Of a DNA stretch of 64,000 nt, positions 10,727 through 30,002 are shown piece after piece. A program made the translations under genes and the position numbers. This DNA is from Alphaproteobacteria bacterium (GTDB lineage: Bacteria; Pseudomonadota; Alphaproteobacteria; Sphingomonadales; Sphingomonadaceae): the NCBI GenBank assembly GCA_005883305.1, contig VBAC01000001.1:744001-808000 (forward strand). Reading direction: 5' to 3'. The notes beneath the pieces were generated by a model, which made no database searches, was not told the origin of the DNA, and saw only the letters and a list, made by a program, of their open reading frames with translations. The stretch's first letter is position 1. The number at the start of each line of letters is the position of its first letter.

Positions 10727-11272
10727 ATGTCCCTCACCGCACTCGACATCGTCGTCATCCTGCTCGTCGGCGCCGGGCTCGTGCTCGGCTTTCTGCGCGG
10801 TTTCGTGTTCGAGGTGCTGTCGCTCCTCGCCTGGTTCCTGGCGATCATGGCGCTTCGCTACCTTCACGCGCCGGTGCGCGATTTGCTGGTCGGGCCGGTC
10901 GGCACCGTCTCGGGCGCCTCGATGCTCTCCTTCGCTTTGGTCTTCGGGCTCGTCTTCGTCGGCGGCAAGCTCGCCTCGCGGCGGATGGGGACCCGGGTTC
11001 GCCAGTCGGTGGTAGGGCCGGTGGACCGCGTTCTCGGCGCGGGCTTCGGCGCGCTCAAGGGGCTGATCGGCGCGACCTTGCTCTATCTCGGCGCGAACCT
11101 CGTCTACGACGTGATCTGGGGGCGGGCGGCGCTTCGTCCCGAATGGATGGCGCAGTCGCGCACCTATCCTTTGCTCCAGTCGAGCAGCGCGACGATCGTC
11201 GACCTGGTGGATGCCCGCCGCGGCCCCGCCCAGGGCAATGCGATCGAGCCCGCTCCTTCGAACGGCCAATGA
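10727..11272 (+). CDS. cvpA: CvpA family membrane protein
   Basis: 181-residue inner-membrane protein with four hydrophobic segments (about 8-25, 28-45, 63-82 and 100-122) and a charged C-terminus ending in RRGPAQG. This is the CvpA (colicin V production) family pattern: ALDIVVILLVG near the start and GFLRGFVFEVLSLLAWFLA in the first pair of helices. The biochemical role is unsettled; it has been linked to envelope stress and purine metabolism. Here it is not followed by purF, as in many bacteria, but overlaps cysS by ATGA, so it is coupled to cysteinyl-tRNA synthetase. Confidence 0.9.
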   Translation: MSLTALDIVVILLVGAGLVLGFLRGFVFEVLSLLAWFLAIMALRYLHAPVRDLLVGPVGTVSGASMLSFALVFGLVFVGGKLASRRMGTRVRQSVVGPVDRVLGAGFGALKGLIGATLLYLGANLVYDVIWGRAALRPEWMAQSRTYPLLQSSSATIVDLVDARRGPAQGNAIEPAPSNGQ

Positions 11273-12618
11273 CCCGGATCCGCCTCCACGACACGATGGC
11301 GCGCGAGAAGCGCGTCTTCGAGCCCGCGGACCCCAGCCGCGTGACGATGTATGTCTGCGGGCCCACGGTCTACAACCGCGCCCATATCGGCAACGCCCGG
11401 CCCGCGGTGGTGTTCGACGTGCTCGCCCGGCTGCTGCGCCACGTTTATGGCGAGCAGAGCCTCGTCTACGCCCGCAACGTCACCGACGTCGACGACAAGA
11501 TCATCGAGGCGGCGCGCGCCGAGGGCGTCGATCCCCCGGTGATCACGGCGCGCTACGAGGAGCATTACAACGCGGACATGGGCGCGCTCGGCGTTCGCCT
11601 GCCGGACATCGCGCCCCATGCGACGGCCCATGTCGGGCAGATGATCGCGATGATCGCGCGGCTGATCGAGACCGGCAACGCCTATGAGGCCGACGGGCAC
11701 GTCCTGTTCAACGTCCCCTCCGACCCCGATTACGGCGCGCTCGGCCGGCGGGATCGCGACGCGATGATCGCCGGGGCCCGCGTCGAGGTCGCCAGCTACA
11801 AGAAGGACCCGGCCGATTTCGTGCTGTGGAAGCCTTCGGGCGAGGACATGATCGGCTGGGACTCACCATGGGGCAGGGGCCGCCCCGGCTGGCACATCGA
11901 ATGTTCGGCGATGATTGCCGAGCATCTGGGCGAGACGATCGACATCCACGGCGGCGGCCTCGACCTCATTTTCCCCCACCACGAGAACGAGATCGCCCAG
12001 AGCCGCTGCGCCCACGGCGGGGCGCCGCTGGCGCGCTACTGGGTGCATAATGGGTTTCTGTCGATGGCCGGCTCGGAGAAGATGTCGAAGAGCCTGGGGA
12101 ACGTGGTCACCCCTGCGGAGTTGCTGGCCGAGGGCCACAAGGGAGAGGTGCTTCGATTCGCGTTGCTTACTGCGCACTACCGCCAGCCGTTGGAATGGTC
12201 ACGATCTCTCATCGACCAAAGCCAAGCGACGCTGCACGGACTATATTGCCGTGTGAAGCGATACCAGACGGGAGAGGGCGACTTCGAGCCTGACGAACTT
12301 CCTCCGCCCGACCAGGATGTCGTGGATGCCTTGTGTGATGATCTGAACACCCCGTTGGCTTTGAGCCGCCTCAGCGCACTGCGAAACGATGTGGAGGTTG
12401 CCTCGACAGCCAAGTTCCTAGGGTTACTGCAAGAGGGTAGCCGATGGTTTCGGCCTGATGACGTGGACGCGTGCAAGATTGAGGACCTGATCGCTGCTCG
12501 GACCGAGGCCAAGGCACGGCGCGACTTTGCCGCGGCGGACCAGATTCGCGCCGAGCTGGCCGAAGAGGGGATCGTGCTTGAGGATGGTCCCAAAGGCACG
12601 ATCTGGCGTCGGGCCTGA
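11269..12618 (+). CDS. cysS: cysteinyl-tRNA synthetase
   Basis: Class I aminoacyl-tRNA synthetase charging tRNA-Cys. Zinc/Cys-binding MYVCGPTVYN near 24, the HIGH-like AHIGNA next, and KMSKSLGN near residue 270. 449 residues is slightly shorter than the usual 460-480. The open frame extends upstream into cvpA, but the ATG overlapping the cvpA stop (ATGA) gives the expected MTRIRLHDTMAREK. Odd: from about residue 294 to 405 codon use changes strongly, with TTA, CTA, CGA, GGA and GAT codons that the neighbours avoid, while the protein still reads as a normal CysS DALR/anticodon region. See findings. Confidence 0.96.
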   Translation: MTRIRLHDTMAREKRVFEPADPSRVTMYVCGPTVYNRAHIGNARPAVVFDVLARLLRHVYGEQSLVYARNVTDVDDKIIEAARAEGVDPPVITARYEEHYNADMGALGVRLPDIAPHATAHVGQMIAMIARLIETGNAYEADGHVLFNVPSDPDYGALGRRDRDAMIAGARVEVASYKKDPADFVLWKPSGEDMIGWDSPWGRGRPGWHIECSAMIAEHLGETIDIHGGGLDLIFPHHENEIAQSRCAHGGAPLARYWVHNGFLSMAGSEKMSKSLGNVVTPAELLAEGHKGEVLRFALLTAHYRQPLEWSRSLIDQSQATLHGLYCRVKRYQTGEGDFEPDELPPPDQDVVDALCDDLNTPLALSRLSALRNDVEVASTAKFLGLLQEGSRWFRPDDVDACKIEDLIAARTEAKARRDFAAADQIRAELAEEGIVLEDGPKGTIWRRA

Positions 12619-27374: not shown

Positions 27375-30002
27375 ATGAGCGAGCTGCCCAAGACCTTCGA
27401 CCCCGCCGAGATCGAGGCGCGCTGGTATGCGCGCTGGGAAGGCGAGGGGCTGTTCCGCCCCGACCGGCCGGACGCCGAGCCGTGGACGATCGTCATGCCC
27501 CCGCCCAACGTAACGGGGTCCTTGCACATCGGCCACGCGCTGGACGTCACGCTTCAGGACATCCTGACCCGCCATGCCAGGCTCCAGGGTAAGGACGCCT
27601 TATGGGTCGCGGGGATGGACCATGCCGGCATCGCGACGCAGATGGTGGTCGAGCGGCAGCTGAACGAGAAGCAGCAGAAGCGCACCGACTTCACCCGCGA
27701 CGAGTTCGTCGCCAAGGTGTGGGAATGGAAGGCGGAGAGCGGCGGGGCGATCACCCGCCAGCTTCGCCGGCTCGGCGCGTCCTGCGACTGGGCGAACGAG
27801 CGCTTCACCATGGACGAAGGCTTCAGCCGCGCCGTCCTCAAGGTGTTCGTCGATCTCTACCGCCAGAACCTGCTCTACCGCGACAAGAGGCTGGTGAACT
27901 GGGATCCGGGCCTCAAGACCGCCATCTCCGACCTCGAGGTCGAGACCACCGACGTTCAGGGCAAGTTCTGGCACCTCAAATATCCGCTCGAGGACAGCTC
28001 GGGCTTCATCCACGTCGCCACCACCCGGCCCGAGACGATGCTCGCCGACATGGCGGTCGCGGTGCATCCGGAGGACGCGCGCTACGCCGCTTTGCTCGGC
28101 AAGCAGATTCGCCACCCCATCACCGGACGGCTGATTCCGATCATCGCCGACGAGCATGCCGATCCGGAGCTCGGCTCCGGCGCGGTCAAGATCACGCCGG
28201 GGCACGACTTCAACGATTTCGAGGTCGGCAAGCGCGCCGGGTTCAGGCCGGCCGAGATGCTCAACATGCTCGATGGCGACGCCAAGGTGATCCAGGCCGC
28301 CGACGGCCTGATTCCGGCCGAGCTGCTCGGCCTCGACCGTTTCGAGGCGCGGGGACGCGTCGTCGGGATGCTGGAGGCGGAGGGCCTGCTCGAAAAGGTC
28401 GAGGACCGGATGATCGCCACGCCCTATGGCGACCGCTCAGGCGTGGTGATCGAGCCCTGGCTGACCGATCAATGGTATGTCGACGCGGCGACGCTGGCGA
28501 AGAAGCCGATCGAGGCGGTGCGCTCGGGCGAGATCCGCGTCGTGCCCGAGACCTGGAAGAAGACCTGGTTCAACTGGCTCGAGAACATCCAGCCCTGGTG
28601 CGTCTCGCGCCAGCTCTGGTGGGGGCACCGGATACCGGCCTGGTACGACGACGCCGGCAACGTCTATGTGGCCGAGACCGAAGCGGATGCGCAGGCCGAG
28701 GCGGGGGAGGGCGCCGCCCTTCGCCGCGACCCCGACGTGCTCGATACCTGGTTCTCCTCGGCGCTCTGGCCGTTCGCAACCCTCGGCTGGCCGGAGGAAA
28801 CCGAGACCCTCCGCCGCCACTATCCCAACGACGTCCTTATCTCCGGCTTCGACATCATCTTCTTCTGGGACGCCCGGATGGCGATGCAGGGCTATCAGTT
28901 CATGGGCGAGCGCCCGTGGAAGACGCTCTACCTCCACGGTCTGGTCCGCGATTCCAAGGGCCAGAAGATGTCCAAGTCGAAGGGCAACACGGTCGATCCG
29001 CTGCTGCTCGTCGACCGATTCGGCGCCGATGCCTTGCGCTTCACGCTGGCGGCGATGGAGAGCCAGGGGCGCGATATCAAGCTCGATGAGAAGCGGGTCG
29101 AGGGCTACCGCAACTTCGCCACCAAGCTGTGGAACGCGGCCCGCTTCTGCCAGGCCTACGGCATCGGCGCCTCCACGGCGATCGAGCCGCCCGCGGCCAC
29201 CCTCCCGGTCAACCACTGGATCGTCGGCGAGACGGTGAAGACAGTCCAGGCGCTCGACCTCGCGCTGGCGGAGCTTCGCTACGACGAGAGCGCCAACACC
29301 ATCTACCACTTCGTCTGGGCGACCTTCTGCGACTGGTATCTGGAGCTGATCAAAGGCCAGATCGACGAGGAGACCAAGGACGTCGCCGGCTGGGTGCTCG
29401 ACCAGATCCTGGTCATGCTCCACCCATTCATGCCCTTCGTCACCGAGGAGCTTTGGAACGCGATGGGCGAGCGGCCCTATCCGCTGATCCTCGCCAAATG
29501 GCCGATGCCTGACGCACGCGCGCTCGATCCGGACGCAGGACCAGAGGTCAATTGGCTAATTGCGCTGGTTAGTCAGATTCGAGCCGCCAGGGCTGAGCTT
29601 AACGTTCCGCCCGGAGCCCAACTTCCGCTCTACGTTCGCGACTCCAGCGAATTGACGCGCCAGCGTCTCTTGAAGAATAATATCGGTCTCAAACGCCTGG
29701 CTCGAGCTAATTGGGCGCAGGGACAAGATGCGCCTTTCGGCGCTGCTGCGCAGTTGGTAGTCGACGAAGCCACTTTCATCCTGCCGCTGGAAGGCGCAAT
29801 CGACATTGCCGCTGAGCAAGCGCGTCTCGCCAAGGCCGCCGAAGCCGCCGAGAAGGAGCGCGATTCGCTCGCCGCCCGCCTTAACAATCCCTCGTTCGTC
29901 GAGCGCGCCAAGCCGGAGGCCGTGGAGAAGGCCCGCGCCGATCACGCCGAGAAGGCGTCGGACGCGGAAAAATATCGGGCTGCTCTGGCAAGGCTTGGCT
30001 GA
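27375..30002 (+). CDS. valS: valyl-tRNA synthetase
   Basis: Class I synthetase charging tRNA-Val, 875 residues. HIGH motif in [14 protein letters not shown] near 42-52, editing (CP1) domain with [17 protein letters not shown] near 215, KMSKSKGN near 535, anticodon domain with [14 protein letters not shown], and a C-terminal coiled coil ([22 protein letters not shown]). Odd: between roughly residues 725 and 817 codon choice shifts to AT-ending codons (CTA, ATT, AGT, CGA, AAT, GTA) unlike the flanks. The stop TGA overlaps the ATG of the MATE gene by one base (TGATG). Confidence 0.97.

Follow-up and report, generated by a model that had tools for sequence, protein, structure and literature searches.

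The valS gene of the window (the whole 64,000-nucleotide stretch of DNA analysed here) carries an internal low-GC3 patch, probably an allele of a segment that has been replaced repeatedly, homologous recombination being the most likely route of exchange. In segments of this kind we found block-like divergence between near-identical flanks, recurrence, conflicting tree topology and a distinct composition, and we found them in several synthetases; from there we infer a recombination route and a selection for diversity.

27375..30002, + strand: valS, valyl-tRNA synthetase, 875 aa (Pfam and phmmer)
29535..29813, + strand: low-GC3 patch in valS, codons 721–813, GC3 0.57 (GC3 profile, relatives)
29577..29789, + strand: divergent core of valS, codons about 735–805 (local identity to sister species, AlphaFold2 model)

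The low-GC3 patch of valS

The valS product combines a class I core, an anticodon-binding domain and a C-terminal coiled-coil arm, as seen from Pfam (tRNA-synt_1, PF00133, residues 17–571; Anticodon_1, PF08264, 614–752; Val_tRNA-synt_C, PF10458, 810–875), from a phmmer match to T. thermophilus ValRS (1gax) across residues 3–875 and from the fold match described below. HIGH and KMSKS, the signature motifs of valyl-tRNA synthetase, are both intact in the translation, the former as LHIGHAL.

The sequence-only reading had singled out codons 725–817 for atypical codons (CTA, ATT, AGT, CGA, AAT and GTA), unlike both flanks, and this holds: these codons are present there, and GC3 is 0.58 in that interval as against 0.91 in codons 1–724 and 0.78 in codons 818–875. 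In 25-codon blocks, GC3 is 0.80–1.00 up to codon 700 and 0.48–0.72 over codons 701–825. The likelihood ratio for one low-GC3 segment versus none is 66.6, the maximum in 200 codon permutations, scanned at six segment lengths only, being 19.9. The 3′ border of the patch is soft, since the best single segment by GC3 alone spans codons 708–874; identity to sister species places the borders near codons 735 and 805–815 in most of nine pairs. GC3 of the coiled-coil part ranges from 0.68 to 0.94 across 29 relatives, some of which have divergent patches of their own.

The genome-wide dip scan used a stricter ORF caller, leftover false calls being judged by eye. Among 617 ORFs (864 kb of the window's own genome) the valS dip ranks fifth in depth, and it is the deepest once the four ORFs above it (in L264, L200, L269 and L185), discounted by eye as RHS-stretch, run-on or frame-error calls, are removed; in the relative G008 it ranks first of 301 ORFs in a 400-kb sample. 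The ORFs of L264 (own genome, C1:1740001–1760000), which we take from their motifs to be RHS-like, contain low-GC3 regions. An in-frame interspersed repeat was rejected as a source of both patches of the window, as blastn against the window plus 40 stretches (together 864 kb, or about 29% of the genome) returned self matches only.

Could a second message in the patch (an overlapping gene, an RNA element or a translational pause) dictate its codons? There is a 129-aa antisense ORF at 29556..29945, as is frequent in GC-rich genes, but no Rfam family reaches its gathering score in the patch, the segment lacks conservation across species and the codon pattern is absent from most relatives, so that this explanation is extremely improbable.

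An AlphaFold2 model of ValS codons 580–875 (17 sequences, mean pLDDT 88.5) has T. thermophilus ValRS (1gax) and a C-terminal fragment of P. aeruginosa ValRS (4xkz) as its closest solved folds. In this model, the patch comprises the bundle's last helix plus a small beta-alpha-alpha-beta-beta-beta unit, after which comes the coiled coil; the divergent core corresponds to the end of that helix together with the small alpha/beta junction subdomain that precedes the coiled coil. The model of a divergent ValS, that of Sphingobium terrigena (L392, mean pLDDT 83.3), keeps the fold, with a low-confidence insert between two strands. As judged from these models, the divergent segment retains its fold, and ValS with a divergent patch presumably retains its function.

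Recurrence and block-like divergence among relatives

A first search found a valS match in 60 of 60 genomes. Within the genus, the ValS C-terminus was obtained from 25 of 26 genomes, and the same segment is low in GC3 in five of them (the window's, L018, L020, L023 and L034); in two members of the genus set (L021 and L025), the patch residues are divergent and GC3 is normal. The family search gave valS matches in 384 of 397 genomes. Twenty-five genomes, mostly picked for low scores, were searched individually: 22 matched, and 17 loci (L096–L104, L106–L112 and L115) are divergent with low GC3, the patch of L114 being divergent in sequence with normal GC3. Altogether, the GC3 contrast is −0.15 or lower in 29 of 154 ValS C-termini from distinct genomes, 17 of these 29 coming from genomes mostly picked for low scores, and +0.15 or higher in none (9 duplicate loci were removed beforehand; L105, truncated at a contig end, was retained and counted as regular). 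In a sample of roughly every third family genome, the low contrast was found in 7 of 79 new loci, or in 12 of 91 when earlier-fetched loci are included (G065, whose gene is split across two contigs, was dropped before this count, and G344 was left out of the list, which was capped at 80). The comparison with relatives that the sequence-only reading had called for thus agrees with it: most are flat in GC3, 125 of the 154 lying above the −0.15 cut with GC3 near that of their flank.

Complete divergent alleles are 87–127 aa long, many being 13–39 residues longer than the 88 of the window. ValS has the layout of a segmentally variable gene, with a variable segment of at least 70 aa between conserved blocks, here the bundle and the coil (the 70-aa figure is our reading of a figure legend in PMC387263). 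In genome G349 (contamination 6%), the valS C-terminus was matched twice over its full length, on contigs C17 and C9, so that this genome either has two genes or is a mixed assembly. L033 and L034 contain in-frame inserts in valS near window codon 662; these, and an insert in the IleS variable segment of L438, resemble translated intergenic palindromic repeats (SPSPNPSRGRE, AQAEPVEALS..LRQAQAERG, RHSGGSRNPASS).

Sister pairs with 94–97% identical flanks have only 15–49% of patch residues in common. Amino acid identity in flank and patch is 0.96 and 0.24 for L106/L233, 0.96 and 0.15 for L103/L171, and 0.93 and 0.25 for L104/L180; at the nucleotide level, L106/L233 identity is 0.14–0.50 in the patch interior and 0.83–0.97 in the coil. 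The whole core differs in these three pairs and in L248/L234, L172/L086 and L023/L058, with a coil identity of 0.79–1.00. Compared to L012, its nearest relative by flank, the window has identities of 0.91 in the flank, 0.57 in the core and 0.93 in the coil; its patch residues are 57% identical to those of L012 and 63% to those of L007, which makes it only moderately divergent and the least cassette-like case.

An AU test on 44 sequences, run with 5000 replicates (the program warned that 10000 are needed), has the patch reject the backbone tree with a dlogL of 352 (p-AU 6e-38). Two control segments of similar length gave a dlogL of 19 (p-AU 0.13) and of 52 (p-AU 0.0016), the latter likewise rejecting the backbone tree, far more weakly than the patch. 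The topology of the ValS patch therefore conflicts with that of the remainder of the gene, as expected of a mosaic allele, and the domain-wise comparison of trees proposed from the sequence turned out strongly positive.

Compared to regular patches, divergent ones are lower in GC1 (0.62 versus 0.76), GC2 (0.44 versus 0.54) and GC3 (0.53 versus 0.83), richer in rare codons (10.6% versus 1.9%) and richer in FYMINK residues. Some patches find their best match in another genus: (i) L111 with L112 and L100 with L103, both pairs also grouping in the patch tree; (ii) L172 with L248, which group there with L034. The patches of L111 (g50) and L112 (g65), from different genera, are 68% identical over 123 aa, and their nearest relatives by flank have 35–52% patch identity. 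Only 12 of their 37 fourfold sites are the same, which is near random and indicates either an old transfer or ancient lineages; the residues being alike nonetheless, they must be constrained and the split old. Low GC3 persists in old alleles such as this class, which simple amelioration would not predict.

These data also bear on the idea that constraint is relaxed, the junction subdomain mattering little and drifting under weak codon selection. The patch is indeed less conserved than the flank and the coil in almost every relative, including the regular ones, and the divergent model has its low-confidence insert; yet both models keep the fold, GC3 is near that of the flank in the 125 alleles mentioned above, and the L111 and L112 residues are 67% identical despite near-random fourfold sites. 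We consider this idea very unlikely.

Other synthetases of the same genome

The other synthetase of the sequence-only reading, which we took to be cysS, has a comparable segment.

11269..12618, + strand: cysS, cysteinyl-tRNA synthetase (Pfam; start ATG at 11269)
12175..12489, + strand: divergent low-GC3 segment of cysS, between the catalytic domain and the conserved CysS_C
L252 1415..4339: IleS of the same genome

Searches and segment codon counts for cysS start at 11275, two codons after the ATG. GC3 is 0.63–0.67 in the segment and 0.87–0.92 upstream, and the segment is divergent with low GC3 in 4 of 24 genus loci (the window, L144, L145 and, more mildly, L143), having been replaced differently in L143, L144 and L145. 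The last 47 codons are 64–79% identical within the genus. Both atypical segments had been described as 3′, which is not accurate: the valS and cysS patches both lie inside the gene, with a conserved extreme C-terminus beyond them (coiled coil and CysS_C, respectively).

The alaS of the same genome is divergent after the coiled coil in a version found in 1 of 30 loci, the other 29 being without it. IleS contains a hypervariable segment of 25–77 aa, presumably in the editing domain, which in 18 of 18 relatives (L421–L438) is 11–22% identical to that of the window's genome; its GC3 is 0.52–0.76 in 13 of the 18 and 0.80–0.96 in five with shorter forms. The suggestion of a recurrent process across synthetases, rather than chance, is thus borne out: the same valS segment is replaced in many species, cysS behaves alike, and alaS and ileS add to the list. 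The GC3 profile of the genome's own synthetase genes agrees in part, with dips in valS, cysS and alaS but no comparable internal dip in ten other synthetase-family genes (LeuS, MetS and eight more). MetS has one 40-codon block at GC3 0.68, and its anticodon-domain segment (MetS at L258 8806..10344, own genome) has diverged locally from G025 and has a normal GC3; it is perhaps an older, ameliorated replacement.

When the genome was compared with G025, 6 of 111 orthologs displayed both a local collapse of identity and a GC3 dip: valS, cysS, alaS, NtrY, a GIY-YIG/SpoU run-on ORF and a mis-started ORF. The comparison with G008 gave 5 of 71, namely valS, cysS, alaS, the mis-started ORF and L189 10063..10779, the last of which was rejected as an artefact of the stretch end. 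Synthetases are enriched in the G025 set (Fisher p 0.0004, with 4 of the 111 counted as known synthetases and the others not annotated individually; 0.04–0.07 without valS and cysS), an enrichment due in part to those two genes, from which the search had started. The N-terminal region of the NtrY sensor kinase (L258 16978..19116) is the sole non-synthetase case among the 111 besides the two doubtful ORFs.

Origin of the alleles and possible selection for diversity

A phage or plasmid origin of the valS patch was rejected, as ValS matches are at most 63% identical in plasmids and below 60% in phages. The plasmid collection includes an 853-kb Sphingomonas parapaucimobilis record with a valine--tRNA ligase gene (NZ_CP155750.1, 431192–431740). 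The L112 allele had no match in the plasmid and phage collections, nor among 385 genomes sampled from the class; the silence of this last set is weak, as it contained no genome known to hold the allele. Six peptide patterns of the window allele found no relative in viral_contigs.

That no donor was found in these collections weighs against an exchange and is what one would expect if the segment had evolved in place, without recombination, diversifying selection bringing in substitutions faster than codon optimisation can follow and so driving GC3 towards 0.5. The GC3 of divergent patches (0.45–0.68, in host flanks of 0.69–0.94) and the milder cases, the window's own patch among them, are also consistent with this account. 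In L106/L233, however, 67 of 80 flank fourfold sites are identical, yet 76% of the patch residues differ; moreover, many alleles have the extra 13–39 residues, and one allele class is common to different genera. In-place evolution is therefore unlikely.

Under the preferred reading, exchange by recombination, the part of sphingomonad ValRS that joins the bundle to the coil would be swapped as a block for divergent alleles, the conserved flanks serving homologous recombination. Incoming alleles would be lower in GC at every codon position, and the new segment would keep the fold, so that the enzyme would still work. The cysS and alaS of the same genome would have undergone a like replacement, and ileS would carry its hypervariable segment in the editing domain. 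The allele pool would lie within the family, since the single class searched for (L112) was not seen outside it. Recombination at tRNA-recognition domains, as first proposed, thus finds support as far as recombination goes; its homologous nature is presumptive, and so is tRNA recognition as the target, because the ValS core lies after most of the bundle and the IleS segment in the editing domain.

The data suggest that some natural factor keeps selecting for change in these synthetase segments. Diversity may be kept by escape from a putative synthetase-binding factor that attaches at a distance from the active site. We favour this possibility tentatively: the segments are not at the active site, several synthetases have them, and some belong to old classes that are shared. 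A more specific version, which we regard as rather doubtful, is that synthetases would be disabled, by binding to their non-catalytic tRNA-side surfaces, by antagonists of an as yet undescribed class, either encoded by phages or injected by rival bacteria, and that sphingomonads would evade them by swapping these surfaces as modular alleles, an old shared pool being kept by rarity advantage. The proposed synthetase-surface alleles would in this respect be like surface antigens, whose alleles are kept by rarity advantage.

Mosaic genes arising from intragenic recombination are well known among antigens and penicillin-binding proteins. As in ValS, a block is replaced within an essential or conserved gene; unlike them, ValS is a cytoplasmic housekeeping enzyme, and its segment lies away from the active site. 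Antibiotic-resistant second synthetases, such as mupirocin-resistant IleRS 2 and agnB2 LeuRS, illustrate that antagonists can select altered synthetases, in likeness to the proposed escape, but these are whole alternative genes, whereas in ValS a single internal non-catalytic segment is exchanged. Closer in architecture are segmentally variable genes, in which a variable segment is likewise bounded by conserved blocks and among which synthetases are named, with a ProRS insert as example (Zheng, Roberts and Kasif 2004, PMC387263). The comparison there is among sequenced genomes at large; the sphingomonad case differs from it by exchange between species with 96–97% identical flanks, by the involvement of three to four synthetases, by the compositional mark and by an allele class common to genera. 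In the partly accessible sources of our literature search, we found no account of synthetase segments being exchanged in sphingomonads.

Synthetases are regarded as slow, constrained housekeeping genes and serve as phylogenetic markers. That several synthetases of one bacterial family exchange an internal segment, between species whose flanks are nearly identical, points to a pressure on translation that has gone unrecognised, and the allele types provide a genomic handle for finding its cause.
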